DNA of 64,000 nt, from assembly GCA_030680855.1 (NCBI GenBank), contig JAUXUN010000021.1, forward strand, positions 1-64,000. The letters are read 5' to 3'. Source of the DNA: Aestuariivirga sp. (lineage in GTDB: Bacteria; Pseudomonadota; Alphaproteobacteria; Rhizobiales; Aestuariivirgaceae). Shown here in pieces: positions 30,807-45,502 of this stretch (positions are counted from its first letter, which is position 1; every line of letters starts with the position of its first letter). The notes beneath the pieces were generated by a model. It did no database searches. It was not told where the DNA came from and worked only from the letters and a program-made list of their open reading frames with translations. A program made the position numbers and the translations under genes.

Positions 30807-31424
30807 TCAGTTGCGGCCACCGAGTATTGTGTCGATCTTCAACGCATTCGCCGCGGGCGCCAATGTGCCATCGAGCTGGTGAAATTTCGTCCTGGTTGCC
30901 GAACTATATTGCTTTGCTAGGTCTTTGAGCAAATCTGCGCTTGCAGACAGCTGTGCATGGGTGGTTTCTAATGGCAGTCCGTCGTAGCGGCTGATGCCAT
31001 GGGTCCGCTTACCAATGCGTTCGACGGCGACGGCGACCGGTGTTTCGACCCAGATTATCCAATCTGGCGCGAAGGGTTTCAGCGATACGATTAACTTATG
31101 CAAACGCCTTGAAGGATAGTTGTCTGCGCCCGATAGGATAGACCAGAGTTTTTGAACTTGTCCCTGATCAACAAGAATTACGCGTTCGCGATGCTGATAG
31201 TGCCGCAAAAACGCAACCAGGTTTATTCCCCTTTTCAGCCGATCAATAGTGAATGGTCGTGTTGCACAGCAGAGGAGAAGGACATTCCATGAGGCCCGCA
31301 CAAGCATTGAATTCAAACGAGTTTCTCGAAGTTGAATTGAACCCTTCTTGCCATGTGTCAGGGTGACTAGCTTGCAGATTGTTGTTTTGCCGCTGCCTGG
31401 AAGCCCAACGCATTCCACGATCAT
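30807..31424 (-). CDS. P-loop kinase-like protein
   Basis: 205 residues with a Walker A motif at the very start (ECVGLPGSGKTTICKL), a possible lid region and an aspartate after a hydrophobic strand (RVILVDQGQVQKL). The overall pattern resembles thymidylate/adenylate-kinase-like NTPases found in capsule and lipopolysaccharide loci rather than a nucleotide kinase of central metabolism. Its start overlaps the stop of the next kinase gene by four bases, so the two probably work together. The substrate is unknown; a sugar or glycan phosphate is plausible. Confidence 0.65.
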   Translation of the reverse strand: MIVECVGLPGSGKTTICKLVTLTHGKKGSIQLRETRLNSMLVRASWNVLLLCCATRPFTIDRLKRGINLVAFLRHYQHRERVILVDQGQVQKLWSILSGADNYPSRRLHKLIVSLKPFAPDWIIWVETPVAVAVERIGKRTHGISRYDGLPLETTHAQLSASADLLKDLAKQYSSATRTKFHQLDGTLAPAANALKIDTILGGRN

Positions 31425-32875
31425 GATGACTCTGCCTTTGCCAGATATGCCCAGATAGCCCGTTTGGTGGCCCTGAGCACCTCTTCAGGACTCTGCCCGG
31501 CATCGATCACGGTGACTCTGGAACCGGGAAATTGCAGGGTGTCAATGATCGCGCATTTGCGGCGGATAGTAACGAGATTATGGTCAGGCTTCCGCAAAAT
31601 TGCCGTTTCGGGATCAACCTTGAGTTTTATGATAAGTTCTGGTCCGAGCTGGGCTGCTTCGGCGAACAGTTTTTGTTCGCTCTCGGCCGCCCAAGCAAAG
31701 CAACGACCGTTTTGCAATCGCGGGCCGTCACTGATGGCCTCAAATTGGCTTTGTGGGTAGCGGTCAAGCAGAATGACGCTTCCACTATCAGCAAGGCGCC
31801 TCCCAAGCCGCAGGAGCCTCAGTTTTCTGCGGAGCAGAAGCAAATCGAAAAGGCGATACGCCTTATTGACAAAGGAAACTGGACGCGCCGGGCTTGTTTC
31901 TTTTGTCGCCACGACGCGCTTTATTCTCTTGCCAATACGTTTCGAGAGCTGCCGTCGCGCCGCATTTACCCAGCCCGCTCGACCATCGCCCGACCCCATA
32001 TAGATCAGGTGGACATCGAGTTTGCGGCGGAGCCACCGCTCGAATGACTGGCTCACGGTAGATTTACCCGAGCCATCGCTTCCAATGAAAGCAATCATAA
32101 CGCCCCCGCCGGCCAAGGTCTTGCCATAGCGGATTGGACCAATATGGCGCAGCCAGAGCCGGGTCAGTGCAAGCCAGAGGTTTAGCATTGCTGCCCGGAT
32201 CAGGGCTGTGGGCCAGTTCATCCGGTAATGCTGCTTGACCTGACCGTAGAGCTGCCGCGCCAGCGCAATGAGTGCAGCATCGCCGCCCAGCGGCAAGTGA
32301 ATATCCGCGTTGAGACCGAGGCCCTTGGCGAGTGTGGCGAGCCGGCTGGTCTGGACTTCGCTTTCGAGCCAGCGCACTTCCTCTTTCACATGCGGCGGAA
32401 TCTTTGGCGCGAAGAGCCTGCGCCATGGTGGCATCTTGGCCCAAATCCGCACCAGCAGAATGAGAAGTTCCATCTCGGGCATCGGAATGGGCCAACCACT
32501 CCGTTCGTCAATGCGCAGATTTGCAAGCACCGTATCGGCCCAGGGCAGGCGCAGATGCTTCACCCGCTTAAGGCCGGTCACCATGTCGAAGTGAACGTGA
32601 AGATGCAGAAAATTGCCAGTTGCGCCATCAAAAACCAGCCAATCCACGACATTTGGATAGCGCGCCCAAGGCTGGCTGAGAACCCTTATCGCCTTCAAAT
32701 TACACAGAATGCGCTCAAATTCAGCCTCGTCGTGGCAATCCACCAGCATATCAAGGTCGGTCTTGCCTGCCAGCGCGTCATCAATATGATAGTTGCTCTT
32801 CCATAAAGCAAAGCCAACATTGGCTTCCTGCAGGGCGGTCCGGAGCTGGACAGTGACGGGTAGCGGCGATGTCAT
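31421..32875 (-). CDS. Two-domain protein: nucleotidyltransferase-like region plus thymidylate-kinase-like domain
   Basis: 484 residues. The N-terminal part (about 1-240) contains LWKSNYHIDDALAGKTDLDM, with paired acidic residues in a pattern like that of nucleotidyltransferase-fold sugar or lipid modifying proteins, and HLHVHFDM. The C-terminal part (about 260-484) is a P-loop kinase with Walker A AFIGSDGSGKSTVSQSF, an LLDRYPQSQFEA motif after the second strand, and RKPDHN, all similar to thymidylate kinase. dTMP kinase activity itself is unlikely, given the fusion and context. The ATG at 32875 is the first before the conserved N-terminus; no clear ribosome site is seen. It is coupled to the small P-loop gene downstream. 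Confidence 0.65.
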   Translation of the reverse strand: MTSPLPVTVQLRTALQEANVGFALWKSNYHIDDALAGKTDLDMLVDCHDEAEFERILCNLKAIRVLSQPWARYPNVVDWLVFDGATGNFLHLHVHFDMVTGLKRVKHLRLPWADTVLANLRIDERSGWPIPMPEMELLILLVRIWAKMPPWRRLFAPKIPPHVKEEVRWLESEVQTSRLATLAKGLGLNADIHLPLGGDAALIALARQLYGQVKQHYRMNWPTALIRAAMLNLWLALTRLWLRHIGPIRYGKTLAGGGVMIAFIGSDGSGKSTVSQSFERWLRRKLDVHLIYMGSGDGRAGWVNAARRQLSKRIGKRIKRVVATKETSPARPVSFVNKAYRLFDLLLLRRKLRLLRLGRRLADSGSVILLDRYPQSQFEAISDGPRLQNGRCFAWAAESEQKLFAEAAQLGPELIIKLKVDPETAILRKPDHNLVTIRRKCAIIDTLQFPGSRVTVIDAGQSPEEVLRATKRAIWAYLAKAESS

Positions 32876-33007
32876 CGCTTTATTAGTCTGGCTTAATCGG
32901 CAAGTGCAAGCGGCTAGTTGCCGGATTTCAGGGCTATCACTAACAACGCAACCGGCGTGACCTGGCAACTGAGATGTGCCGACACTTCAGTTTGGTCCGT
33001 CCAGCAC

Positions 33008-33691
33008 CTAAATTCCAAAAAGACCATAAATCGCTCCACGGAATTTGATTGTCGAGAAAATCTGGGTATAAGTCCGCATATCGTGTTTGGAGGCCGTTAA
33101 GGAGCCTATGCGCCGAATATAGTCGAATTTGAATTTCCTTCCGAAGACCAGGCTGTAGACGAAGCAGGAACCTATACGGCTGTCGACGAATGCTGTGATG
33201 GGTTTATCACTCTTGGCAACCAGGAGCAGGATGTCGGCGTCGAACTCAGTTTGCCGGTCATAATTTGGTCCGTCGATCCAAACGAATTCATAGTCCCGCT
33301 CTGGAATTGACTGATATGCCCTTCCCCGGAAAGGTCCGTAGTGGACCTGATGGGAGGGACTCAGCTGCAGGTCGATATGAGGGCGCAGATGATCAGGAAT
33401 GATCGCCTGCAATGCGTCATAATACTTTTTCAGATCCTCCATCGCTGTTACCCGGCCTGAGCCGTTCTCGTAAAGAGCTTGGGCGATGACCAACGTTGTA
33501 ATTCCCGGTCCAAACTCCAGCACCTCGTGCGGTTTATTCGATTTTATATGAGAATATAGCAGCCAATAATCGTAATAATTGGCACCGGTAGAGGGACTGT
33601 CTGTTGACACAAGCGCGCGAAGGGCTTCATTCCGGAGAACATTCCTTCGAGCCCACCATTGGGGCAATTTGCGTATGTCTGGCAGCGCCAT
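33008..33691 (-). CDS. Class I SAM-dependent methyltransferase-like protein
   Basis: 227 residues with a Rossmann-like methyltransferase core: motif I as VLEFGPGITTLVIAQALYE, an acidic end of strand 2 in VTAMEDLKKYY, and a strand-4 motif FVWIDGPNYDRQTEFDADIL. The DGP and following tyrosine resemble the class I enzymes and relatives that often sit in glycan loci. A methyl acceptor cannot be given. It reads leftward, in line with the kinase gene 132 bases downstream, and is divergent from the first methyltransferase/P-loop fusion. Confidence 0.6.
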   Translation of the reverse strand: MALPDIRKLPQWWARRNVLRNEALRALVSTDSPSTGANYYDYWLLYSHIKSNKPHEVLEFGPGITTLVIAQALYENGSGRVTAMEDLKKYYDALQAIIPDHLRPHIDLQLSPSHQVHYGPFRGRAYQSIPERDYEFVWIDGPNYDRQTEFDADILLLVAKSDKPITAFVDSRIGSCFVYSLVFGRKFKFDYIRRIGSLTASKHDMRTYTQIFSTIKFRGAIYGLFGI

Positions 33692-33851: not shown

Positions 33852-35075
33852 ATGTCAAAGTCATTGCTACCGGAATGTGGCGGCACAGCCGCAAAGCTGC
33901 ATGAAGCTGCTTTGGATATCATTCTTCCAATCGATTCCACAAAGACTAGAACAGTATTGGACGCTGCGTGCGGCAGTGGTGAACTTTGTATTAAGCTTCT
34001 GCAGCGCGGTGCAATGAGTGTCACCGGTGCCGACTCTGATAGACATTCCATCGCGCACTGCCGGCGAATTGCAAGCAGCAATGGATTCATGGCGAATTTT
34101 CTTGAATTCGACATTGAACGCGAAAAATTAGAAGAAGTTTATGATGTAGTTCTGTTCTTGAGCGGTTTGCAGCGGCTCCGAAATCCGGTTTCCGCACTTG
34201 AGGCTCTCACTGGCGCCACCCGTGAGGAGCTCATAATTGGCATTGATGACAAGAGGAGCTTTCAAGAGGCACTTGGAAGTTTTTGGCGCTTGATTTCAAA
34301 TGTGTTTTGGAAGTTGCCAATATTGTATTTAGGTGGGTTGGAAAAAAAGGATTGGGACGGCGTCAATCACTTTCTATTCTCGGACCGCGCCATTGTAGCG
34401 CTGCTCACCCGGCACAGATACAGCTTTGCTCGCGTCGACTTTGTCCCCTGGGAGGCAGCGGGGCGCCGGCTCGCCGTTGCGCATAAACGGCAGATCGGGC
34501 ATCTCGTGATAGTTGCCGGCGTTCCAACATCGGGGAAAACAACCGTAATGAACAAGCTCATGGCGGGTGAATTACCGGATATCGCAAAACAGTTGGACTT
34601 CGACTGCAAAAAAAAATGGCTGAGCACGGGGTATGGCGAAGTTTGCCACATTCAGGACGCACGGGTTGAGAATTTGCTTCTCCATTTCAATATCACCAAG
34701 TCTCTCGTGGATGGCGATCACTACGGCTACAAAGGGGGGCTGTTGGATCTGATCAAATCGGCCCAGCGGATTTCGGTGGTTAGCTTGTGGTGCCCTCCTG
34801 CGGAACTCAGGCGGCGCTATTTGGAAGGCCGCGTCAGAACCAAACTTTCCCGCTCCAAACGTTTGCGTCAAGACAGGAAAAACCGCATCCTGCTTTCACT
34901 TTATGATGAGCCTGAGAATCTTGCCCGTTTGTTCGCAAAATGGCTATCATTTGTCGAGTTGCACCGTGCTGCTCCAGTAATACTCGAAAGCACGGCCTTG
35001 GGGAAAACAATTAGCCTGAGCGATTGGCGACAGGAGTTCTTGCAAGGGGAAGATATATCTGCCGGGGGTAGCTGA
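33852..35075 (+). CDS. Methyltransferase/P-loop NTPase fusion protein A
   Basis: 407 residues in two parts. Residues about 20-200 are a class I methyltransferase: motif I VLDAACGSGELCIKLLQRGA, acidic strand-2 end VTGADSDRHS, and strand 4 YDVVLFLSGLQRL. After a linker, residues about 215-407 hold a P-loop domain with Walker A VIVAGVPTSGKTTVMNKL, a basic region (RTKLSRSKRLRQDRKN) likely to bind phosphate, and LLSLYDEPENLARLFAKWLS. The P-loop half is related to that of the protein encoded at 36071-37324 on the other strand. The ATG at 33852 is preferred to a TTG five codons earlier, though the ribosome site is weak. I know no named family with this order. Base composition here seems more A+T-rich than in the flanking housekeeping genes. 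Confidence 0.7.
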   Translation: MSKSLLPECGGTAAKLHEAALDIILPIDSTKTRTVLDAACGSGELCIKLLQRGAMSVTGADSDRHSIAHCRRIASSNGFMANFLEFDIEREKLEEVYDVVLFLSGLQRLRNPVSALEALTGATREELIIGIDDKRSFQEALGSFWRLISNVFWKLPILYLGGLEKKDWDGVNHFLFSDRAIVALLTRHRYSFARVDFVPWEAAGRRLAVAHKRQIGHLVIVAGVPTSGKTTVMNKLMAGELPDIAKQLDFDCKKKWLSTGYGEVCHIQDARVENLLLHFNITKSLVDGDHYGYKGGLLDLIKSAQRISVVSLWCPPAELRRRYLEGRVRTKLSRSKRLRQDRKNRILLSLYDEPENLARLFAKWLSFVELHRAAPVILESTALGKTISLSDWRQEFLQGEDISAGGS

Positions 35076-35167
35076 GTGGATGCCCACCTAAGAATCACTC
35101 TTGCCTTTGCGGCTGTTGGAAAGCAGAATGATTTATTTGCCCGAGCACCGTTGATTGAGAGGCGCTG

Positions 35168-36049
35168 ATGATACCCAACAGTAGTATACTTAGGAAAGGC
35201 GCAGGCTCAATTCACAAGGCGGCGCGTGTGATTTTGCGATCTGCACGGGCGCTCGGCAACATGGCATCCGAGCGCAGGGCTGTGCAACTTGGGCGGTTGG
35301 TCGGGGCATCCGGGCTGACTATTGGCGATGAGCAGGGGTATGTCGCTTTTTCAACTCGCGAGTTGGGGTTGACAGAAAAAATTGCCAGACTGGCCTCTCT
35401 TGCTGGCCAGTGGACCAAGGACCCGATCCGGAACAAGGGTGACAAACCTTTTCTCCGAAACTTATTGAACGGGCAAGACCTTCTCGACATTCCGGAGTTC
35501 ATGGATGTGGCTACGCATCCGGTCTTTTACGGTGCTGTCACAAAATACCTTGGGCAAGCTCCTTGGCTGGTATCAATGAACCTTTGGCTCACTCCACCGA
35601 ACCAGACCGCCGTGCGCAGCCAGCTTTATCACTATGATCATAAGGATACGCGGCAGGCGAAGATTTTTATCAATCTCAACGACGTAACGCCGGATTGCGG
35701 CCCACTGCACTTTTTACCGGCAACGGAATCCATAAAAGTCGAGAAAGCCGCTGGCTATTCTCAAGGTCGATACACCGACGAGGAAGTTTATGGCGCTGTT
35801 GCCAAGAGTGAGGTTGTCGCGACAGTTGGGAATACCGGCAACGGCTTTATTGTGGATACGGCGAGATGCCTGCACTATGGCAGCCGCGGCAATGTTAAAG
35901 AGCGGCTGATGCTCATGGTCAACTTTGCCCGCGTCAATTGTGTTGATCGAGGGTCCGGTTGCGAGGTGCTTGATCAGGTGCGCGACCAGCTGATCCGTCA
36001 GAGATACTCAATGGATCCAGCGCGGGCGTTTACCATCGGCAGTCATTGA
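35168..36049 (+). CDS. Phytanoyl-CoA dioxygenase (PhyH)-like protein
   Basis: 293 residues of the Fe(II)/2-oxoglutarate dioxygenase fold. The iron ligands are probably His and Asp in YHYDHKDTRQAKIFINL and the distal His in TARCLHYGSRGN; an arginine for 2-oxoglutarate follows in KERLMLMVNFARVN. PhyH relatives hydroxylate small molecules, lipids or carrier-bound metabolites. Start chosen because GAGAGG lies five bases upstream of the ATG. It lies between the two methyltransferase/P-loop fusions, which suggests a shared pathway of methylation, phosphorylation and hydroxylation. Confidence 0.75.
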   Translation: MIPNSSILRKGAGSIHKAARVILRSARALGNMASERRAVQLGRLVGASGLTIGDEQGYVAFSTRELGLTEKIARLASLAGQWTKDPIRNKGDKPFLRNLLNGQDLLDIPEFMDVATHPVFYGAVTKYLGQAPWLVSMNLWLTPPNQTAVRSQLYHYDHKDTRQAKIFINLNDVTPDCGPLHFLPATESIKVEKAAGYSQGRYTDEEVYGAVAKSEVVATVGNTGNGFIVDTARCLHYGSRGNVKERLMLMVNFARVNCVDRGSGCEVLDQVRDQLIRQRYSMDPARAFTIGSH

Positions 36050-36070
36050 TAGAATGCCTTCGCGATATGG

Positions 36071-37324
36071 TTAGGGTTGCCCGGCCACACCCTGTTCCAA
36101 TACGGCGGACCAATCGTCCTGCGCGGCGCGCCTAAATTCACCACAGTTTTCAACTACCATCCGGGTTGCAGCTGGAAAGGATGAACCAAACGAATCCCAA
36201 GCGTTGTACCAGTCGTTCAGGAATTGTGGCGTGCCATAGAGCTTGAGCAGTTGCAAGTCTCTCTCACGTGGCTTTCTGCCCTTCCTCTCGATTTCGCCTT
36301 TTTGCAACTGCTCGGCCAATCTGTGACGCGGCGTCGCTACGGTCAATATTGTCACCGTTTCTGCGACTTTTAGAAGGTCCAGGGATGGATCCCTGTCGAA
36401 CGAGTGAATGCTTGTTCTTGAAGGACGCAGAAAATCATAGTGGAAAATCAATTGATCCCGTCGGCCGGGAAGCATTTTCGGAACTTCAGACGAACCAACA
36501 AGTGGCCACGACCCCGGTTGCATCCCGAATTGTTGCTGCAGACTTCCATCCTCACGGAGCCTTGCGCACAACGTACTTTTTCCGGATGAGGTTGGGCCGG
36601 CTACAACGACAAGATGTCCGATACTCTTTTTCTGGGCAACCACGACAAGCCGGCCCTTGAATGGTGAACTTGTAATCGAAATAGGTTCAAACAGGTTGGA
36701 ATGAACGTTGAATATTATTCTTAAGGCCTGGGGTGTGAACATGTAGGTTCGGCCAGCAATGTAGCCGCGCTTTTTGGGCTTACCCAGAAATATCGCGGGG
36801 GAGCCAAGACCAGCCAAGCGCAACGGGTTAATGTGATCTTTCAAGACTTCTCGCCATGTTGGCTTGGCCACCTCCAGAACAATCCGTGATTTCGACAATT
36901 GCATGATTTTCCGAATGGCATTTATGGGGTCAGTAAGATGGTGCAGGACATTCAAACAAGTGACAACATCGAAGGTCTCATTCGGGGGAACCCATCGTTC
37001 GAAGTTTCCGTTGATATACTCTGGCTTCATTGACAGCAGGCCTGCAATCCTCTGGGCCCGGCGAACGTGGGACACATCAGTTTCAATGCCGCAAGATCTT
37101 ACCGCACCTCTACGCAGCGCCTCGATACAGAAATGGCCGAGATAGCTTCCGATATCAAAATAACTCTTTCCGGTGAATTCATCGCCGAAAACTGTCTTGA
37201 ACATGTATGCCCGATCGTGGCCGGGGGTGACTACGCCGCCGGGCAGAGTAACGGATTGATAGGCCAATTCCTCCTCTTCCAGAAATTTCAGCGACTCGGC
37301 ACGCACCTGCTGCTCATCAACCAC
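36071..37324 (-). CDS. Methyltransferase/P-loop NTPase fusion protein B
   Basis: 417 residues with the same order as fusion protein A. The methyltransferase part (about 50-230) has motif I YFDIGSYLGHFCIEALRRGA, CGIETD at the end of strand 2 and FDVVTCLNVLHHL at strand 4. The C-terminal P-loop part (about 235-417) has LVVVAGPTSSGKSTLCARL, FHYDFLRP, a basic segment (RKGRKPRERDLQLLKLYGTP) and a conserved tryptophan region DWYNAWDSF. The P-loop segments of A and B share GHLV-VAG-TSGK and LYD/GTPxxL, but the methyltransferase halves differ more. The start is GTG with AAGGA ten bases upstream. It converges on the PhyH gene. Confidence 0.7.
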   Translation of the reverse strand: MVDEQQVRAESLKFLEEEELAYQSVTLPGGVVTPGHDRAYMFKTVFGDEFTGKSYFDIGSYLGHFCIEALRRGAVRSCGIETDVSHVRRAQRIAGLLSMKPEYINGNFERWVPPNETFDVVTCLNVLHHLTDPINAIRKIMQLSKSRIVLEVAKPTWREVLKDHINPLRLAGLGSPAIFLGKPKKRGYIAGRTYMFTPQALRIIFNVHSNLFEPISITSSPFKGRLVVVAQKKSIGHLVVVAGPTSSGKSTLCARLREDGSLQQQFGMQPGSWPLVGSSEVPKMLPGRRDQLIFHYDFLRPSRTSIHSFDRDPSLDLLKVAETVTILTVATPRHRLAEQLQKGEIERKGRKPRERDLQLLKLYGTPQFLNDWYNAWDSFGSSFPAATRMVVENCGEFRRAAQDDWSAVLEQGVAGQP

Positions 37325-37575
37325 GATTCTTGGTTCCTTTTTTGGCGCCCAGGGCGCGATCTGATGCCTCCTATCTTCAGAAATATCTCCATTGTCAATG
37401 GCGGAGGCAAAGGGTGCCGGAGGGCAGGGTAAAAATGCTGCAATCTCAAGCTGGTAGAGTTGCGAGTATCTGCAACATGAGCAAAAAACAGAACGCCATT
37501 TCCGTTAAGTCAGTTGGACTCGCAAACCGTTCTGAACGTGAGTTTGCGGCTCCACGTCACCATCCGGTATTGAGG

Positions 37576-38421
37576 TTAGTAGCCTAAAGTAGGATCCATG
37601 CTGTGCCTTATCATCTCATCGATTTCTTTAACCTGAGCGTCAGTGAATTGCTGTTTATAACCGCCACTTTTGCCGCTTCTGACCTTGAATGACTGCGGGT
37701 CCGCGTTGTCGCTTGCTTGCAGGTGAGTGTCGGCGAAGTAGCGCTCCTTCTCTAGTTTTTTCAAGTTTTCAAATTTTCCAAAATCGACTGCGTCTTGCAA
37801 TTCCTCATTCGTGAAATTGCCACCGAAGTGATCGGTAATCCGCTTGAGCCATACGACAGGCTCCTTGAGCAAGTCTTCGTAACGCACCATCAGGACGTAT
37901 GGGTTGTCTTTTGCAAAAGCCATCCAGTGGTTTATGAAGGCAATGGCGGTATGGATTCCTTGACCTGGTCTGGTTGCAAAGGAAAAGACGTCCAAATCTT
38001 TTGTAATGTTATCGCGCCTGTGAGCGCGGCGGTGTTTCTGATGATAGTAGAGCGAAGCGATTACATCCCCCGGATGCCTTACCAGAACAACGATGTTTTT
38101 CCCGTTGTAAGCCGATTTGTCGGGAATCAGATCTTTGACGCTTGCGAGCTTGTCACCGTCATGGGTGAAGAAAATGACGGGTATCCTGCCGTCAAGCTTG
38201 TGCAAATTGTCTAATCTTATCAAAAGATTATCTGGGGTGCCAAAACGAACGTGGTATAGTCGCGTCAGCATGGCGCGCACCCAAGTTCTTCCCGATTTCG
38301 GAAAGGACACCAGAATGTAGTCTGAGGTTTTTATCAATCTGGGATTAACAAACAGACGTTCGATCAGCTTGTTTCTTGCACGGCGCGAAATGATGAGCTT
38401 TAGAATATTCGGTACTCGCAT
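37576..38421 (-). CDS. Sulfotransferase family protein
   Basis: 281 residues. The 5'-phosphosulfate loop that binds PAPS is clear (ILVSFPKSGRTWVRAMLTRL), and the 3'-phosphate region is seen as IVVLVRHPGDVIASLYYHQK; the C-terminal PAPS loop with basic residues is GKSGGYKQQFTD. Together these define sulfotransferase family 1, which in rhizobia sulfates surface polysaccharides or Nod factors. The ATG at 38421 has AAGGGAC upstream; a longer frame would overlap the next gene. The acceptor is unknown, but the context implies a glycan. Confidence 0.88.
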   Translation of the reverse strand: MRVPNILKLIISRRARNKLIERLFVNPRLIKTSDYILVSFPKSGRTWVRAMLTRLYHVRFGTPDNLLIRLDNLHKLDGRIPVIFFTHDGDKLASVKDLIPDKSAYNGKNIVVLVRHPGDVIASLYYHQKHRRAHRRDNITKDLDVFSFATRPGQGIHTAIAFINHWMAFAKDNPYVLMVRYEDLLKEPVVWLKRITDHFGGNFTNEELQDAVDFGKFENLKKLEKERYFADTHLQASDNADPQSFKVRSGKSGGYKQQFTDAQVKEIDEMIRHSMDPTLGY

Positions 38422-38500
38422 TGAATTGTCCCTTGCAAAAAGGCATTTCGATTTGGCCGGAAGGCGGCCAGACCGTGTCAGGACGGTCGTCCTGCTGCCG

Positions 38501-39643
38501 TTATCCACCCAGTGATTTTAGATCTTCGGCAAGCAATTTCGTGTGCCACGCCAGAGTTTTTGTATACCAGGGTTTTGTGACGTCCTCTTCCGATTTGCCC
38601 AGGACATCTTTGGATCTCTGGAAGAGATAAGCCACCTGCACCAGCCTTCCGAAAACGGCATCCTCTGTCTGGCCCAGCGCCTCAAGAGGTTGCGTCTCAC
38701 TCCAAATTTGAAACAACGCAGTCAATTGCGTTTGCAGCCCTGGAACCCGCCTGAAAAGTTTGTAAAAGTCAGTAAAGATCGGCGCATGGTGGGCACGCTC
38801 CCAGTCAACAATGTAGGTGATGCCATCTTCAACCAGAAGATTTCCGACTGACATGTCGCCATGGGTCAGCCCAAACGGAACTCCTACTTTGGTGATGTCC
38901 CGCCTTATGAAATTGCGGTCTACGAATCGCCGCAACTCCGCGTTGTCCAGGCCAAATTGAGAAAAGAGGTTTTCTATGGCACTCAGGGTCTGGGGCAAAG
39001 GGACCGCATCGGCGATCGAACGTTGAACCATCCCGTTGCGCAAGTAGAAATCAAATAGACCTTTAGCCAGTTTTTCGCCATCGCGCGCGGGCTCAAACAG
39101 CCTTGCCCCATCCAGCAACTGCTCAACCAGGAAACACCCGTCGGGTTTCACTTCGGTATGAACCAATCGCGGCACACGGATAGCGCCGGCGTCCTTAATT
39201 GACTTCCGCACGGTAATTTCATTCGCAATTGCGGGTGTGGCCATCTCCAAAACAGGATTGGAGCACTTCAATGTGACACGTTGATCGAAGTAAAATCCCC
39301 TGATGTTGTTTTTCAGAAACACCGCGTCAGCGGCCAGCGTGGATACGCGTTGGTTCGCTGGGGCGAGCCCAAGAAGAAGCCGCCGCAGCGAACACCCTGA
39401 AATTCGCTGCAAGAAACTGTCGTGACTATCGAGGTCCTTGCTTCGAGGCAAACGTGCCTTGATGAGCCGTTTTACGAGCTTCGTGGGCAGATACCAGCGG
39501 CCAACAAGTGACAGCTTTCTTGGATCTGGTGCTTTACCAACAAACTCCCTTGCGCTCGACTCATTTGAGCCAAGCCAGTTGAGTGACCGTGCAATATCGT
39601 GGCGGTTCACCGACTTATCGGGGATGTTCGCTAAGACTTTCAA
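38501..39643 (-). CDS. APH/choline-kinase-like phosphotransferase
   Basis: 380 residues of the protein-kinase-like APH fold. The catalytic loop is FGLTHGDMSVGNLLV (Asp as base, Asn as metal ligand) and the metal-binding motif is YIVDWERAHHAPIFTDFYKL in place of DFG. N-terminal lobe signatures are weak. Members in surface-glycan loci phosphorylate sugars or amino alcohols; antibiotic resistance is not suggested. The start is TTG, with GGAG about ten bases before it. The sulfotransferase gene follows 80 bases downstream on the same strand. Confidence 0.75.
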   Translation of the reverse strand: MKVLANIPDKSVNRHDIARSLNWLGSNESSAREFVGKAPDPRKLSLVGRWYLPTKLVKRLIKARLPRSKDLDSHDSFLQRISGCSLRRLLLGLAPANQRVSTLAADAVFLKNNIRGFYFDQRVTLKCSNPVLEMATPAIANEITVRKSIKDAGAIRVPRLVHTEVKPDGCFLVEQLLDGARLFEPARDGEKLAKGLFDFYLRNGMVQRSIADAVPLPQTLSAIENLFSQFGLDNAELRRFVDRNFIRRDITKVGVPFGLTHGDMSVGNLLVEDGITYIVDWERAHHAPIFTDFYKLFRRVPGLQTQLTALFQIWSETQPLEALGQTEDAVFGRLVQVAYLFQRSKDVLGKSEEDVTKPWYTKTLAWHTKLLAEDLKSLGG

Positions 39644-39999
39644 AGGTTCATGACTCCGGCAGCAAAACTATCTGGCACAACACACTTGCATTTGGATATT
39701 TCTCAAGCTTCAATTTCGCGTCTCCAGACACTTCCCGCTACGACGAGCCATTTTTTTATCCCCCTGCCAGTGGGCCATCAACCCGGCATTTCTGCCTTTA
39801 TGCGTTGCACCCCGGACCATAAGGCATCGCTGCGAGCGCCTTGACAAAGGTTCCACTTGAACCAAATACCTAGCGGGCGCAAGTGTTCTGCAGCAGCCGG
39901 ATTCAGGACAAAACCGATGGCTCGACAGGATGCTTTGGGTTAAGTAGTTACTACCGATTTGGTCATTGCACCTGTAAATTGTGGAGAGTGTGGCAAGCC
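39644..39999. other. Divergent intergenic region of 356 bases
   Basis: Separates the leftward kinase gene from the rightward surface-carbohydrate gene and presumably holds both promoters. No clear -35/-10 pair, repeat or RNA structure was recognised. Part of it may be the coding start of the rightward gene, whose initiation codon is uncertain. Confidence 0.4.
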
Positions 40000-41340
40000 T
40001 TGCGAACCTATAACGACATTCTGTTACCTGTTGAAACGACAGCCCGCGAGCTGGATGCAAAGCTTCTTCTTGCGTTGTTTGCCGCGGAAGCGGGGTTCAC
40101 GGCGCATATCGGAACGTTGGGCGCAATTCAATCCCCTGGATTTCCACCCTCGATCTATCTTTCCAAGAGCGTGCGCTTCACGAAGAGCGTTCAGATCATG
40201 GCTCGCTTTGGCCATGCTGTCGTGGCATGGGACGAAGAGGGGCTTGTCCGCTTCGATGATGAGAAGCATGGCAGCCGAATTGAGATGGGCGCGCTCCAAA
40301 TCCCTCATTTACTTCTGAGTTGGGGGCCCGACAATGCCCGCATGTGGAAAGCACACGCCTTCTACAACGGACGCCCTATTGCCGAGACAGGCAATCCCCG
40401 GATCGACCTCCTGCGGCCTGAACTCCGAACCTTGCACGAGAAGGATGCTGCTGACTTAATTGGCCGATTTGGCAACTTCGCCTTGCTCAACACCAATTTC
40501 GCCATCGCCAATCATTTTAGACCGGGCGGGAGGCGTGTAAAGGCATCAAAGAACTCACACAATTCGGAGGCGTTCATTGAATTCCGCGAAGGATTGGAGA
40601 ACCATAAGAGTGCGTTGTTAAAGTCGTTTCTTTCGGCGCTTCCTGCAATTGCACAGGGCATCAAGCCATTTCGACTGATCGTCAGACCACACCCTTCTGA
40701 AAGCCTGGTTCCTTGGCAACAGGCGACGAAAGGACTGGACAATGTCATGGTATTGTTGGAAGGCCCCGTTGTACCGTGGCTTCTGGCCACAAAATGCTTG
40801 CTCCACAACGGCTGTACAAGCGCGGTAGAGGCCTCTGTCTTAAACACGCCAGCACTTGCCTATTGTCCACTCGAAAATACTGAGTACGACCTTGACCTGC
40901 CCAATGCGCTAAGCGAGAAACTAGTCGACGTGGCTTCGGTGGTCCATCGAGCCCGGCAACTTCTCGAAAACGGGCGAAAGACCAATCAAATGGCTGCTTG
41001 GCCAGAGTTGTTACGGGACAATATTTCAGCGCTTGATGGGCCATTGGCATCTGAGCGGATCGTTCAGGAGCTTTTGAAACTGCGCGATAGCACTCCCGTT
41101 GTGAAGCCTTCTGCAGTTAATCTGACGCGCGCTTACGGCAAGTACGCCTTTAAGTCCATCCGTCGCCAACTCTCACCAGGCCGGCGCAAGTATGAAGAAC
41201 ATAAGAGCAATCCGTTGGAGTTCAATAAGCGCGAGATCGAGAAGAAAATTGAAACAATGAGTCGCGCCATTGGCAGGTTCGGTAATATGCAAGTCAGCGA
41301 AAGGTCTCCCGGAATACTCACAATTACTGCTCTGAGTTAA
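40000..41340 (+). CDS. Surface carbohydrate biosynthesis protein
   Basis: Resembles the family annotated as surface carbohydrate biosynthesis protein, usually found beside nonulosonic-acid genes. The family-type start is ILLPVETTARELDAKLLLAL. Further on are WGPDNARMWKAHAFYNG, a conserved GNPRIDLLRPE and RLIVRPHPSE with a late NGCTSAVEASVLNTPALAY; the last two resemble donor-binding stretches of GT-B transferases, so a transferase role is possible. The 5' end is uncertain: the frame is open from a GTG at 39883, and GTG 39988 is another option. TTG 40000 is used because the family starts a few residues before ILLPVE and GGAGAG lies upstream. It converges with the neuA operon, as expected for a partner. 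Confidence 0.75.
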   Translation: MRTYNDILLPVETTARELDAKLLLALFAAEAGFTAHIGTLGAIQSPGFPPSIYLSKSVRFTKSVQIMARFGHAVVAWDEEGLVRFDDEKHGSRIEMGALQIPHLLLSWGPDNARMWKAHAFYNGRPIAETGNPRIDLLRPELRTLHEKDAADLIGRFGNFALLNTNFAIANHFRPGGRRVKASKNSHNSEAFIEFREGLENHKSALLKSFLSALPAIAQGIKPFRLIVRPHPSESLVPWQQATKGLDNVMVLLEGPVVPWLLATKCLLHNGCTSAVEASVLNTPALAYCPLENTEYDLDLPNALSEKLVDVASVVHRARQLLENGRKTNQMAAWPELLRDNISALDGPLASERIVQELLKLRDSTPVVKPSAVNLTRAYGKYAFKSIRRQLSPGRRKYEEHKSNPLEFNKREIEKKIETMSRAIGRFGNMQVSERSPGILTITALS

Positions 41341-41454: not shown

Positions 41455-42180
41455 TTATCGCTTCGCTCCTGGAATCGGCTGGCGTTGCAGCAGGAACTCG
41501 GCCCATTCCAGATCGAGTTCGGTGTCAATATTCGCAACGGGCCCTTCGATGATGACGGCGCCAGACCTCCTGCCTTTGGTGGTCTTTTGGAGGAGCAGGC
41601 AGTCGCGCGTGAAAGCGTAGGCGATGCCGTTACGGTGATAAAGGGGTTTGAGTTGCTGGCGAGCAATGATGGTGGCACCACGCGCATCGTAATAGTCAAG
41701 GTCATGAGAGTCGGATACCATAAGCTGTTTGAGTGGATGGCCTTTGCTATCTGTTTCGCTCACGGTCCAGACAGTGTCGAAGTCCTCCGTTACCAGGCGG
41801 GAAAGGGTCTGTTCAACATGCTCGGGCTTGCGGCTGGGCGATGTCGGCTGAAGCATCAGGACGATGTCGTAGACCACGCCATCAAGCGACTCCATCGTGG
41901 TCAGTGCGTGGTAAAGCACTTCGAAATCACTGATGATGGAGCCTGAGATATTGTCTGGCCTGCGGAATGGTGCCGCAAGGCCCGACTCTTCCGCAACCCG
42001 TTTAATTTCTTCGTGATCAGTGGAAACAATTGCCCGATCAATGCTCGGTATGGCCCTCACGACATGGCCAACCAGCGCCACCAGAGGCACGCCACCAACC
42101 TTCCTGAGATTTTTGAGTGGGATGCCCTTGCTGCCACCCCGGGCTGGAACAACAGCTAAGACGCGGCGGCCTTCAAGCAT
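41455..42180 (-). CDS. neuA: Acylneuraminate cytidylyltransferase (CMP-nonulosonate synthetase)
   Basis: 241 residues activating a nonulosonic (sialic-like) acid with CTP. The N-terminal nucleotide motif is VLAVVPARGGSKGIPLKNLR, followed by GVPLVALV, IVSTDHEEI and MLQPTSPSRKPEHVEQTL, all typical of NeuA. The exact sugar (Neu5Ac, Kdn, legionaminate or another) cannot be read from the sequence. Its start overlaps the HAD gene by eight bases, so it is the last gene of the operon Gfo/Idh/MocA, neuB, HAD, neuA. Confidence 0.9.
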   Translation of the reverse strand: MLEGRRVLAVVPARGGSKGIPLKNLRKVGGVPLVALVGHVVRAIPSIDRAIVSTDHEEIKRVAEESGLAAPFRRPDNISGSIISDFEVLYHALTTMESLDGVVYDIVLMLQPTSPSRKPEHVEQTLSRLVTEDFDTVWTVSETDSKGHPLKQLMVSDSHDLDYYDARGATIIARQQLKPLYHRNGIAYAFTRDCLLLQKTTKGRRSGAVIIEGPVANIDTELDLEWAEFLLQRQPIPGAKR

Positions 42181-42790
42181 GCTGGTGTAGCTCCGTTCCG
42201 GGAAGTGCCAGAAGATCCTCAGGCTTACTGATCCGGTGAAACTGACAACCGTTCCGGGCTGCGGCTACTGCGTCATTCTCTCCGTCACCAACTACGAGCA
42301 ACCGGGAGGGCCGAACGCCATGGTGAGTCAAGAGGTTCGTAATAGTTTGTACCTTGTTGTGCGGGTAGCCATAGATGCCGGTGAATAGACTCAGCCAGGC
42401 ACGTCGCGCCAAAAGCAGGGTGAGCTGCTCATGCGGTGTTATGGAAAAGACATAAAGCGGAACTGCGCCAGATAATCTTTTCAGGAGGTTGCTTGCACCC
42501 GGCATTTCCGGTGCTGCGTCAACGGCGGCGGCAGCGGCCGCGCCGTAGGCACCGATCATCGCGTCTGCGACAATTGTCTGGGCCGGAAGGCCAATCCTTG
42601 CCGCTTCAATTATCATCTCGGGAATTACCCGCTGTCGTGGCCCGTCAGGGTCGCGGTCAAGAACGGTTGCAACTGCAGGAGCAAGATCCGCCGGGAAGAC
42701 ATCGAAGAACGCCTGGCGCTTGGCCCCGGCAGATTGCACCAAGGTACCGTCAAAATCGAAAACAATGACGTCAAAGTGTGTGTTTGACAC
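42173..42790 (-). CDS. HAD-family phosphatase
   Basis: 205 residues with the HAD motif I VIVFDFDGTLVQSAG, a threonine/serine motif II in YVFSITPHEQL, a helical cap of about 60 residues, and motif IV GDGENDAVAAARNGCQF. The start is GTG and overlaps the neuB end by 20 bases. Placed between neuB and neuA, it is probably the phosphatase that removes phosphate from a nonulosonate-9-phosphate before CMP activation, as KdsC does for Kdo and NANP for animal sialic acid. That role is inferred from position. Confidence 0.75.
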   Translation of the reverse strand: MSNTHFDVIVFDFDGTLVQSAGAKRQAFFDVFPADLAPAVATVLDRDPDGPRQRVIPEMIIEAARIGLPAQTIVADAMIGAYGAAAAAAVDAAPEMPGASNLLKRLSGAVPLYVFSITPHEQLTLLLARRAWLSLFTGIYGYPHNKVQTITNLLTHHGVRPSRLLVVGDGENDAVAAARNGCQFHRISKPEDLLALPGTELHQHA

Positions 42791-44303
42791 GGAAATATGA
42801 GAGCCAGTTGTCGACTTTCGTCTTGCGCTGATCGCGGTTCATGCGGGCTATCGCAGGATCCTCGTAGAACGAGTCGTTGTTGAAATGAGTTGTTGACACT
42901 TCTTCGAAAATGCAACCTTCGAGCGTGTGAAACTTGTGCCATTGGTTGGGTTCGACAAGCAGGGTGTCACCTGGCTGCATGGTGAACTTATGTCCGTCTT
43001 TGACGATTTCGAGATCGCCCGCAAGGAGCTGGAATGTTTCTTCCTTCTGCTTGTGAAAATGATAGGGGTGTTTCTGCCGTGCCAGTTGAATTACCAATTT
43101 CTTGGCATAATCGCGATTTATGCAGGTGATGATTACCGCGCCAAATTCGCGGAATCTGCGCAGGCCATAGTGATGCGATATCTCAATTGAGGAATCCTCG
43201 TTAATGTGGATGCCGGCCTTGTTCAGCATGCCCCGGATCTGGAGCATGATCTGATAGACCAGTTGATCGTCGGTGACATCCTGTCCGCCCATCGCCTCGG
43301 CGAGTGGGGCACGCGCGGCGTAGTCTCTGTCGGCGGTCATGCCAGGCCGGAAGTTGCCGCTGCTCATGCAGCCTTCCTGCAATGGCATGGCGAAGAAAAC
43401 ATCGTCCTTGCCAACCAGCTCGCCCTTCTTGATCGCCCTCGCGGCAAAGGCGCCGCGTTTCAGTTCGGTCAGCGTCTGACGCTCTTCCAGAGGTGCCGGA
43501 GCCCGTTCGGCGGACCCGATCATTGCTTTCGCAGCCTTGAAGGCAGCAAGCCACTTTTCCAGCTGCGCTGGCGTGGATGAATAGGCATTGAGCTTGTACT
43601 TGTCGGTGTTGAGGCCTACGTGGCGTTCGAATAACCTGGCACCCAGCGCTGCAGCGATCTGGATAGCAGAGGTATTGTCTTGATTCTCATGTGTTGACCA
43701 GCCAACGGGTACGCCACGATAACGCGCCTTGAGCTGTTTCACCTGGTTGAGTTGAAGCATATTGTCGGGTGTGGGATAGATCGCCACGCAGTGCATCAGG
43801 GCGAAGTTCACGCGCTCGGTCTGGAGAAAATTCGCCAGCCAGTCGATTTCGTCGGTGCGCAGGCCAGCAGTCGAAACAACGACTGGTTTATTCACCCGGG
43901 AAATCTTTTCAATAAGCGGCCTGTCATCCGCCGAACAGCTGGCGACCTTGATAATATCCAGCTCCATGTCGCAAATTATATCAACCGACTCTTCATCGAA
44001 GGGCGTGCACATGGTCAAAAGGCCGCTATTTCTTGCCACATCAGCGAGGCTGTGGAATTCGTCCAACGACAGCTTGGTCTCGCTGAATCTCTTGATGTAC
44101 TTCATGTCGGTTCGTGCCTTGAAATCCGGATGAATGAAGCTGTCGAGTTGCCGGAATTGAAACTTCAGGGCGCCCCTTACACCTGCTGCATTGTTAACTT
44201 TCGCAACTTCCTCGACTATCCGTGCGGCATGCGCGAAGTCGCCCTGGTGATTGTTGGCCAGGTCGTAGATGAACAAGTCGTCGAACTTGAAGGGTTCCTG
44301 CAT
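42771..44303 (-). CDS. neuB: NeuB-family nonulosonate synthase with SAF and C-terminal cupin domains
   Basis: 510 residues in three parts. Residues about 1-270 are a NeuB TIM barrel that condenses PEP with an amino-sugar (FIYDLANNHQGDFAHAARIV near the start, LKFQFRQLDSF, MHCVAIYPTP, GWSTHENQD). A SAF/antifreeze-like domain follows (about 285-350, KRGAFAARAIKKGELVGKDD). The extra C-terminal cupin (about 385-490) has metal ligands in HPYHFHKQKEETFQLL and the second cupin motif QPGDTLLVEPNQWHKF. Typical NeuB is about 350 residues, so the cupin is an addition. It lies between the oxidoreductase gene and the HAD gene and is probably coupled to the latter by overlap. Confidence 0.88.
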   Translation of the reverse strand: MQEPFKFDDLFIYDLANNHQGDFAHAARIVEEVAKVNNAAGVRGALKFQFRQLDSFIHPDFKARTDMKYIKRFSETKLSLDEFHSLADVARNSGLLTMCTPFDEESVDIICDMELDIIKVASCSADDRPLIEKISRVNKPVVVSTAGLRTDEIDWLANFLQTERVNFALMHCVAIYPTPDNMLQLNQVKQLKARYRGVPVGWSTHENQDNTSAIQIAAALGARLFERHVGLNTDKYKLNAYSSTPAQLEKWLAAFKAAKAMIGSAERAPAPLEERQTLTELKRGAFAARAIKKGELVGKDDVFFAMPLQEGCMSSGNFRPGMTADRDYAARAPLAEAMGGQDVTDDQLVYQIMLQIRGMLNKAGIHINEDSSIEISHHYGLRRFREFGAVIITCINRDYAKKLVIQLARQKHPYHFHKQKEETFQLLAGDLEIVKDGHKFTMQPGDTLLVEPNQWHKFHTLEGCIFEEVSTTHFNNDSFYEDPAIARMNRDQRKTKVDNWLSYFRVKHTL

Positions 44304-44315
44304 AGCGTCAATTCC

Positions 44316-45410
44316 TTACAATAGTGCTTCGGGAACGTAACCCGCATTCCAGTCGATCCTCACCCGGCGATCGAGAGCATGTGACTTGAATGCCGCGGCA
44401 ATCACCATCATTGTGTCGAGACCACGTTCGAGGCTAATGGGAGATTGGCTGATTTCTCCATTCATCACGCGGGCCAGATGATCAATCTCAGCTTTAAAAT
44501 CGTCGGGCCGTTTCTTCTCAATCAGTTCCTCCTGTACTGAACCATTGGCCTGGCCGCTGAAAACTGCATCGTGCCCAGGCAGATGATTAACACGCCATTC
44601 GACGAAGCCGCCACTGCCCTGAAGTCTGGCCGATTTTTCGACAGGCAGCGTCACCACATCCTGAATGACGTCCCCCACGAGTCCGTGCTCGGTCCTAAGC
44701 GTTAACAGTGCCAGCTGATCATAGTTGGCACCGTCCTGCTTTACCATGTCAAGAGTGGCAGACACCTCGCAAACTCGTCCGGCGCCTGCTATATTGGCAA
44801 AATGCTGCCAGATATTGATGGCATGTGAATGCTCGCCCGTAGCGCCTCCACCTCTGGCAGAGAAGCCCAGATAGGAATCTGCTGGCCCCGAAAGCCATGG
44901 GTGAGCGCCAAAAATGCCCTTCCAGTGCTCGCGTGTGCGAGCTGAAATTGTCTGGAGACTGCCAAGGATTCCGGATTGGATGGCAAGCTCCGCCCTTTCA
45001 GTGTTTTGTCCCAGACAATGATTATATCCCACGGCAGCAAAGACGCCCGCTTTGTGAACCATTTTGAAGAGTTTTTCGCATCCCTCCAGACCTGGTCCGG
45101 CGAGCGGTTTTTCGATGAGCAAGGCGCGGGGACGCACACGTTCGAGTGTCTCTTGCGCAATCGTTATATGGCTATCGGGCGGTGTGCCAATGAAGATTAC
45201 ATCTGCTGGATCGCCGAAAGCATCGCGTGAATCTTTCAATACTATTGCATCGTCCCAAGAGCCGTAACGCCCCGGGTAAATGCTATCTCGCGCGCGCACC
45301 AAGGCTGCTGCATCGATATCAGTTAGTGTAACCTGCCAGCCGCGGCTGCGGGCGGCATTTGCGAGATGGTTTCCAATCGAGCCAGCACCAATGATTCTTA
45401 TTGAAAACAA
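44316..45410 (-). CDS. Gfo/Idh/MocA-family oxidoreductase
   Basis: 364 residues. N-terminal NAD(P) fold with IRIIGAGSIGNHLANAARSR and the loop FIGTPPDSHITIAQETLE followed by LLIEKPLAGPGLEG, which contains the conserved EKP. The C-terminal alpha/beta domain binds the sugar. The TTG at 45410 is chosen because GGAG lies eight bases before it and the Rossmann strand begins a few residues later; the longer GTG frame to 45491 covers a region with a palindrome. First gene of the neu operon, so it probably oxidises or epimerises the sugar precursor of the nonulosonic acid. Confidence 0.82.
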   Translation of the reverse strand: MFSIRIIGAGSIGNHLANAARSRGWQVTLTDIDAAALVRARDSIYPGRYGSWDDAIVLKDSRDAFGDPADVIFIGTPPDSHITIAQETLERVRPRALLIEKPLAGPGLEGCEKLFKMVHKAGVFAAVGYNHCLGQNTERAELAIQSGILGSLQTISARTREHWKGIFGAHPWLSGPADSYLGFSARGGGATGEHSHAINIWQHFANIAGAGRVCEVSATLDMVKQDGANYDQLALLTLRTEHGLVGDVIQDVVTLPVEKSARLQGSGGFVEWRVNHLPGHDAVFSGQANGSVQEELIEKKRPDDFKAEIDHLARVMNGEISQSPISLERGLDTMMVIAAAFKSHALDRRVRIDWNAGYVPEALL

Positions 45411-45502
45411 TATGAAAACTCCCGCGTCCCATAAAATGCGCGGTATCCTTAGCTTCTCGAAAGAGGTATGTCTACCGCGCGCTTGGTCCACATATAACCA
45501 TT

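Follow-up and report, generated by a model that had tools for sequence, protein, structure and literature searches.

Two genes on opposite strands flank a putative dioxygenase gene, and each encodes a class I methyltransferase domain with a P-loop domain after it; this locus raises the question of what such proteins do and to which substrate. It was analysed within a 64,000-nucleotide stretch of Aestuariivirga sp. DNA, called here the window (Table 1). At a probability of about one half, P0001 and P0002 are bifunctional surface-glycan tailoring enzymes, working in the manner of the chain terminator WbdD and the Klebsiella O7 terminator, though with a kinase of another type. The domain order, proposed in a first-pass annotation of the sequence, was confirmed: the reading frames of P0001 and P0002 were open over their whole length, their N-terminal halves matched Pfam methyltransferase models (Methyltransf_31 in P0001, 3.2e-11; Methyltransf_23 in P0002, 6e-12), and both carried a Walker A motif ([AG]x4GK[ST]). 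AlphaFold models of the two proteins were confident (pLDDT 88.4 and 91.7) and consisted of a methyltransferase fold and a kinase-like P-loop fold.

Table 1. Features of the locus, with positions numbered from the first letter of the window.
Feature	Position	Strand	Remarks
205-aa P-loop protein	30807..31424	-	weakly dTMP-kinase-like
515-aa protein	31421..32968	-	C-terminal half weakly thymidylate-kinase-like; N-terminal half nucleotidyltransferase-like by eye
Second, separate methyltransferase	33008..33691	-	Methyltransf_24
P0001, methyltransferase-P-loop protein	33852..35075	+	407 aa; Walker A GVPTSGKTT; P-loop half 34485-35075; B clade
2,492-bp stretch with P0003 and P0002	35082..37573		109 bp instead in close relative G009
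P0003, PhyH-like (2-oxoglutarate dioxygenase-like)	35168..36049	+	293 aa; H-x-D...H...R; distant homologues annotated as phytanoyl-CoA dioxygenase family
P0002, methyltransferase-P-loop protein	36071..37324	-	417 aa, GTG start; Walker A GPTSSGKST; P-loop half 36071-36631; A clade
Sulfotransferase	37576..38508	-	PF00685, 9.4e-25
APH-fold phosphotransferase	38501..39643	-	PF01636, 8.9e-10
TIGR04396 surface carbohydrate biosynthesis protein	39883..41340	+	3.7e-82
Cytidylyltransferase (CTP_transf_3), PseF-like	41455..42180	-	106.7 bits, under PseF cut-off of 205.7
HAD-type hydrolase	42173..42790	-	
NeuB + cupin protein	42771..44303	-	
Gfo/Idh/MocA oxidoreductase	44316..45491	-	

The methyltransferase fold matched CmoB (Z 18.8, rmsd 3.0, 213 aligned; model against PDB), and the N-terminal domain of EvdMO1 was also matched (Z 18.3, rmsd 3.8, 210 aligned). 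CmoB and TIGR04290-type methyltransferases resembled the window proteins in fold and sequence, but the TIGR04290 scores (45.5 and 39.3 bits) were far under the curated NCBIfam cut-off of 300, and in the window proteins the methyltransferase is joined to a second, kinase-like domain. P0001 and P0002 had PHROGs matches in the methyltransferase half, the P-loop halves giving none. As the matches listed for the full-length model against the PDB all lay in the methyltransferase half too, the P-loop half was folded alone.

Folded in this way, the P-loop half matched nucleoside monophosphate and nucleoside kinases, PSTK and zeta-type kinases with Z scores of 8.0-9.9, the best of which is modest, since 7 to 8 are typical without a clear match. 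The fold and the Walker A motif were shared with archaeal adenylate kinase, PSTK, dCK and zeta-type kinases, at an identity of 10-21% among the 50 matches listed, whereas the motifs HY(D/N), an invariant Tyr and a near-invariant Trp set the P-loop half apart from nucleotide and nucleoside kinases. The LYxxP motif had an invariant Tyr and a variable Pro in the 21 P-loop domains compared, and the Asp of HYDxxRP was replaced by Asn in the P0001 clade. The P-loop halves remained below the Pfam cut-offs (AAA_18, the best for P0001, 26.7 bits vs. 29.4; AAA_16 for P0002, 15.1 bits vs. 32.6), and no NCBIfam model was above its cut-off among the matches listed (best 25 of 35 for P0001). The view that the P-loop half of the window proteins belongs to no named family thus stood in Pfam, NCBIfam and PHROGs, and no characterised family was matched in these libraries; nor was any published work on the fusion recognised among the open-licence papers listed.

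CmoB, a tRNA enzyme, was among the closest methyltransferase folds, and PSTK and a polynucleotide kinase were among the P-loop matches, as would suit a tRNA-type methyltransferase joined to an RNA or tRNA kinase for RNA modification or repair. This role is very improbable: the module had a patchy spread (10 of 100 relatives, own genome counted), the genes sat in surface-carbohydrate clusters in the window and several relatives, and methyltransferase and P-loop kinase-like folds are both common to many non-RNA enzymes.

P0001 and P0002 were paralogous over almost the full sequence (BLASTP: 375 aa at 25% identity, E 3e-34), a homology that by sequence is far above chance, and had in common the IGHLV(I/V)VAG strand, the basic stretch and LYxxP, all noticed beforehand. 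The P-loop halves were, as had been suspected, more alike (29.8% identical, 54/181) than the methyltransferase halves (23.0%, 49/213). The dN/dS of P0001 against its orthologue in the close relative G009 was 0.27 overall, 0.35 for the methyltransferase half and 0.18 for the P-loop half; by this measure purifying selection acts on both halves, and the P-loop half is the more constrained. The suggestion that one module had been duplicated held for the full-length homology but had to be corrected in its timing: P0001 and P0002 fell in two separate clades of the tree, so the duplication is old, and a recent tandem duplication was ruled out. The two clades also neighbour each other in one other genome (G044), and in two more (G040 and G063) if a modestly supported sister group is counted.

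Fused copies came from 14 genomes; most of these belonged to the same order as the window, with Rhodospirillales, Nitrospirae and Elusimicrobia represented as well. The P-loop half occurred without the methyltransferase in 9 of 23 genomes, some of the cross-genome homologue tallies being lower bounds (8 candidates were scored per genome). Fused and separate forms thus both exist, and an artefactual fusion of the window genes, the doubt raised by the first-pass annotation, was ruled out by this recurrence and by the purifying selection on P0001. Of 27 modules, nine had a lost or altered Walker A, and every one of these kept an intact methyltransferase motif I; both copies found in one genome (G055) were without Walker A. 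Such losses would be expected if the methyltransferase were the working enzyme, for O-methylation of a glycan or glycolipid, and the P-loop half an ATP-binding regulator or scaffold, active in few members. We consider this unlikely: Walker A was kept in the other 18 modules, the P-loop half occurred without a methyltransferase in the nine genomes already mentioned, the methyltransferase motif was the decayed part in five modules (G063_C, G040_C, G007_B, G044_B and G007_D1), and the P-loop half is the more constrained half of P0001. None of the 27 modules lacked both motifs, which was not significant (hypergeometric 0.06 to 0.11, the rows not being independent). As judged from these motifs, the kinase step is not universal among family members, and since Walker A is lost in several homologues phosphorylation cannot be assumed for every one of them; the earlier proposal that the proteins phosphorylate and methylate the same molecule therefore needs limiting, and for the members with both motifs catalysis is predicted from their folds and motifs.

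Methyl-phosphate capping of bacterial glycans is already known with two unrelated kinase domains. One of these is compared with AmiN, which is APH-like. WbdD, the chain terminator of E. coli O9a, phosphorylates and then methylates the phosphate in a surface polysaccharide pathway and, in the parts of its description considered here, has its methyltransferase before its kinase domain, in the same order as the window proteins (PMC3482155). Its kinase has the eukaryotic protein-kinase fold, and it bears an extended C-terminal coiled coil (PMC3482155). The window proteins have instead a Walker A motif and a P-loop fold of the nucleotide-kinase-like type, there is no coiled coil in the P0002 model (ending with helix 405-410 of 417), and two paralogues lie near each other. 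No long helix followed the P-loop domain in the P0002 model. The K. pneumoniae O7 terminator ORF6, which makes a methyl-phosphate cap, likewise has an N-terminal methyltransferase and then a kinase of unrecognised sequence, but this kinase is AmiN-like (set apart from the P-loop fold by the description of ORF6, not by sequence) and is followed by a carbohydrate-binding domain and a coiled coil, as far as the available passages describe it, neither of which the window proteins have (PMC11231755). The idea that the domain order has no precedent was abandoned, because WbdD and ORF6 show it with other kinase folds; the new element relative to them is probably a third kinase fold without coiled coil, as far as the models indicate.

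Eleven of 23 genomes, against an expected 0.33, had a PF00685 sulfotransferase gene within 5 kb of a family gene. This strong linkage would also fit an APS-kinase-like P-loop half supplying PAPS to the neighbouring sulfotransferases, which we regard as hardly credible: no APS-kinase Pfam model matched P0001 or P0002 at E<=1, the other 12 genomes had no PF00685 gene within 5 kb, and the methyltransferase fusion would be left unexplained. Five of 23 genomes had TIGR04396 and the family on one contig, and in four of them the two were no more than about 8 kb apart. The association with sulfotransferase and neuB, foreseen earlier, was present in the window, but NeuB and PhyH were nearby in a minority of genomes: 10 of the 14 with the fused form had neither a PhyH-like homologue nor NeuB within 20 kb (the G009 contig ends before NeuB). 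The APH-like kinase is not claimed as a constant partner, a look-alike at another locus (L023) being without Pfam match at E<=0.01. A Pfam scan of 29 window ORFs (118 ORFs of at least 120 aa were listed) revealed no Wzm/Wzt-type O-antigen exporter, which leaves the link to chain termination weak.

In two phosphonate-type loci, from Elusimicrobia (L027) and Balneolales (L031), some 3 kb separated the P-loop domain from PEP mutase-cytidylyltransferase fusion genes, and in L031 the domain adjoined LicD. The protein might on these grounds act on phosphonate or phosphate esters, activating or methylating a phosphonate headgroup bound for a glycan, but in 17 genomes of the same class as the window no family-bearing contig had a PEP mutase match, and 8 of 23 genomes had none anywhere, so that this activity is improbable. 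The passages of PMC6697681 on phosphonate nucleotidyltransferases mention no kinase, P-loop or methyltransferase.

The dioxygenase reading of P0003 was retained in part. The H-x-D...H...R motif of P0003 was kept in three homologues, and five Agrobacterium plasmid records carry distant homologues (24-26% identity) under the name "phytanoyl-CoA dioxygenase family protein"; P0003 itself matched no Pfam or NCBIfam model at E<=1, PF05721 (PhyH) found three other genes but not P0003 in its own genome at E<=10, the P0003 profile was weakly similar to these three proteins (hhalign E 0.0012, probability 19.5), and the family profile matched no PDB sequence at E<=1. The name PhyH-like was used because of the missing PF05721 match, the weak hhalign likeness and the Agrobacterium names. 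In G009 the flanks of the stretch with P0003 and P0002 were collinear with the window (blastn, 84% and 82% identical), and the two genes behaved as one insertion/deletion unit in this one comparison. Homologues of P0003 lay near methyltransferase-P-loop genes in three other genomes; elsewhere in the loci compared there were none.

In the surface-glycan reading, the kinase half would most likely phosphorylate a sugar hydroxyl of a glycan or glycolipid, and the methyltransferase half would then methylate that phosphate or a neighbouring hydroxyl, giving a methyl-phosphate-type decoration such as WbdD makes. Because P0003 and P0002 are jointly absent from G009, P0003 would most likely introduce the hydroxyl that P0002 then uses, and P0001 may act on another position or unit. 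This reading draws on the folds, the domain order known from WbdD and ORF6, the purifying selection on P0001, the sulfotransferase, NeuB and surface-carbohydrate neighbourhood, the two phosphonate-type loci, the P0003 and P0002 unit and the two old clades neighbouring each other in more than one genome; the altered Walker A motifs, the Asn in HYDxxRP of the P0001 clade, the missing exporter, the modest P-loop Z score and the genomes without nearby PF00685, PhyH-like homologue or NeuB speak against it. A wider proposal is tentative and rather doubtful: the P-loop half would found a new family of glycan kinases spread over several phyla (occurring by itself, joined to a methyltransferase or doubly fused in one chain), the two co-inherited clades would form a heteromeric phosphorylate-and-methylate machine with activities split between the partners in places, and the cassette of oxygenase and second enzyme would make and cap one more position on a surface glycan of the sulfated, nonulosonate type. 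Methyl-phosphate capping with a P-loop kinase would be the third independent way of doing so, and an unnamed protein family, found here in several phyla, would gain an annotation; neighbouring copies that recur, the double fusion and the insertion/deletion unit of P0003 and P0002 offer concrete, testable leads to the substrate.

Carriage as phage or plasmid cargo was rejected: P0002 had no match in the phage database, and none of the 37 plasmid records matching it covered more than 80% of the query (the 20 listed covered the methyltransferase half only). On viral contigs, 60 stretches fitted a pattern and 0 were confirmed. The viral structure library returned generic kinase-type matches for the P-loop half.

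The paired genes P0001 and P0002 encode members of a real, recurrent and unnamed enzyme type, in which a class I methyltransferase (MT) half precedes a P-loop half and to which a kinase-methyltransferase function is putatively assigned. Both genes, and the domain order read in them by the first-pass annotation, were borne out in the sequence. The N-terminal halves matched Pfam methyltransferase models, and the two proteins were homologous nearly end to end (25% identity over 375 aa, E 3e-34). Divided at IGHLV, the P-loop halves were 29.8% identical (54/181) and the MT halves 23.0% (49/213), in agreement with the earlier remark that the P-loop halves are the more alike. These P-loop halves fell below every Pfam and NCBIfam cut-off, and for the gene between the pair (P0003, PhyH-like) neither collection gave a match at E<=1. 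Two unnamed genes upstream kept their order in the close relative G009 (locus L070): one encodes a small P-loop protein, with look-alikes recognized by eye close to family genes in L069 and L031, and the other a protein whose C-terminal half is weakly thymidylate-kinase-like.

Features of the window considered here
Feature	Position	Strand	Length	Remark
Small P-loop protein	30807-31424			unnamed
Upstream protein	31421-32968		515 aa	unnamed
P0001, MT-P-loop protein	33852-35075	+	407 aa	open frame as first annotated
P0003, PhyH-like gene	35168-36049	+		
P0002, MT-P-loop protein	37324-36071	-	417 aa	open frame as first annotated

Structure prediction, proposed earlier for both proteins, gave confident models of the whole of P0002 (alignment of 24 sequences; pLDDT 88.4, pTM 0.87) and, for P0001, of the P-loop half modelled alone (21 sequences; pLDDT 91.7, pTM 0.88), with MT and nucleotide-kinase-like folds. 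Among the class I MTs that residues 1-234 of the P0002 model resembled were CmoB (Z 18.8, rmsd 3.0, 213 aligned) and EvdMO1, in its N-terminal domain (Z 18.3, rmsd 3.8, 210 aligned). The P-loop half of P0001 has a predicted nucleotide-kinase-like P-loop fold to which no solved structure comes close: its best match was an archaeal adenylate kinase (Z 9.9, rmsd 3.1, 137 aligned, 16% identity), and others included PSTK (Z 8.7), dCK (8.2) and zeta-type kinases (8.0-8.3), where models with no clear match typically reach a best Z of 7 to 8. Among the sequence matches listed (60 of 297), those of the P-loop profile to PDB chains lay mostly around Walker A.

Relatives of P0002 were present in 10 of 100 genomes; for the P-loop-half profile the counts were at least 9 of 69 genomes at the level of the taxonomic family, at least 8 of 397 at that of the order and at least 3 of 386 at that of the class (own genome counted each time). 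A scan of named genome contigs gave at least 15 loci, adding fused forms from Nitrospirae (L022), Rhodospirillales (L026) and Elusimicrobia (L027) and P-loop-only forms from Balneolales (L030, L031); matches in L032-L035 covered mainly MT-side residues (62-302 in L034). Open reading frames around the matches were read in 23 genomes, where fused and separate forms were both found, as had been envisaged: fused in 14 (G000, G004, G007, G009, G017, G040, G044, G047, G055, G063, G540, G827, G828, G829), some with a second copy whose MT is decayed, and without recognisable MT in nine (G307 and G391, both with uncertain gene starts, G585, G602, G672, G681, G831, G832 and a second gene of G828). The verrucomicrobial copy (G830, L029:7054-8417) comprised two open frames with a break, natural or due to assembly, between the MT and P-loop halves. 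One stand-alone P-loop gene (L084:665-2112) overlapped a gene resembling a 2-oxoglutarate oxygenase by eye, without a Pfam match.

Two or more modules lay within about 2.5 kb of one another in G000 (the genome of the window), G004, G007, G040, G044, G047 and G063. G007 carried a single 879-residue open frame, MT-P-loop-MT-P-loop (L021:7278-9917), with more modules adjoining; the first of its two MT motifs was decayed. Trees were built from the P-loop halves (33) and from the MT halves (27), and long branches leave several positions in them unsure. P0002 grouped with G044_A, G540_A, G063_C and G040_C (support 99/93 in the P-loop tree and 99/100 in the MT tree), joined by one solo form in the P-loop tree. 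The P-loop half of P0001 fell in a group (100/98) that also held G007_B, G009_B, G044_B and the Rhodospirillales form, and G063_A1/G040_A1 formed the sister of this group (82/85); the P0001 group was poorly resolved in the MT tree. By these placements, G000 and G044 each carry P0001-type and P0002-type modules as near neighbours; the same holds for G063 and G040 if G063_A1/G040_A1 are counted as P0001-type. The Rhodospirillales form, at locus L026, combines an MT half carrying CLNVLHHL, the motif of the P0002-like forms, with a P0001-type P-loop half.

According to two reports, WbdD adds a phosphate to the terminal mannose and subsequently methylates this phosphate (PMC3482155), the Klebsiella pneumoniae O7 terminator uses an AmiN-like kinase to produce a methyl-phosphate end (PMC11231755), and in both the MT precedes the kinase, as in P0001 and P0002. 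From this order we infer a kinase-methyltransferase that would act on a surface glycan. The likeness is one of working principle; by kinase fold P0001 and P0002 lie outside both families, and by the coiled coil also outside that of WbdD.

In 11 of 23 genomes, 10 of them among the 14 with fused forms, a PF00685 sulfotransferase gene lay no more than 5 kb from a family gene. Genome-wide density predicts 0.33, a figure that does not factor in a shared preference of both gene kinds for polysaccharide regions. TIGR04396, a surface carbohydrate biosynthesis protein, was found in 5 of 23 genomes (G000, G009, G040, G063, G540), 2.6-8.0 kb from a family gene in four and 239 kb in G540. The distance to NeuB was 5.6-6.2 kb in G000, G040 and G063 and about 21 kb in G829; in G009 NeuB lay on a different contig, and in G540 it was far off. 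The neighbourhood survey suggested in the first-pass annotation was positive for sulfotransferase and partly so for neuB (within 6.2 kb in three genomes). Among the loci examined, the only P0003 homologues were those close to family genes in G063, G540 and G040. An MsbA-like ABC exporter was seen by eye near family genes in L023, L026, L028 and L069 (in L069 also by Pfam). In Elusimicrobia and Balneolales, family genes stood beside PEP mutase-cytidylyltransferase genes, identified by Pfam around the fused gene of the elusimicrobial locus L027:5506-18576; a decarboxylase-like gene and several CDP-alcohol-transferase-like genes were seen there by eye only.

The losses of Walker A speak against the idea that all members carry out a kinase step. 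Among 27 aligned modules, Walker A ([AG]x4GK[ST]) was kept in 18, including G063_C and G040_C (APTSGGKST), which a stricter script pattern missed and which were added by eye; it was altered to GKKT in G047_A1 and G004_A1 and lost in seven, and both copies of G055 were without it. MT motif I was lost in five (G007_D2 is doubtful), and the absence of modules lacking both motifs was not significant. A further counter-point to the kinase-methyltransferase mechanism is the HYD motif, which in the P0001 clade is replaced by HFN, QYN or EYN. Family members without Walker A but with an intact MT motif (L066:2501-4832, L025:8923-11269) adjoined genes resembling APH-type kinases by eye; no Pfam model matched a comparable gene in L023.

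The window and G009 were collinear, with 82-84% identity on both sides of 35082-37573, which 109 bp replace in G009. The missing stretch comprised the PhyH-like gene and P0002, P0001 being present, and its G+C content (0.522) equalled that of the flanks (0.525, 0.513). This joint absence, a gain or a loss seen in a single comparison, suggests that the oxygenase may make the acceptor of P0002. Plasmids of rhizobia, agrobacteria and azospirilla (17 records) carried more distant P0003 homologues; of the two viewed, both on rhizobial plasmids and annotated "hypothetical protein" (L088:11776-12741, L089:2812-3777), one adjoined nodD2 and one was near nifH.
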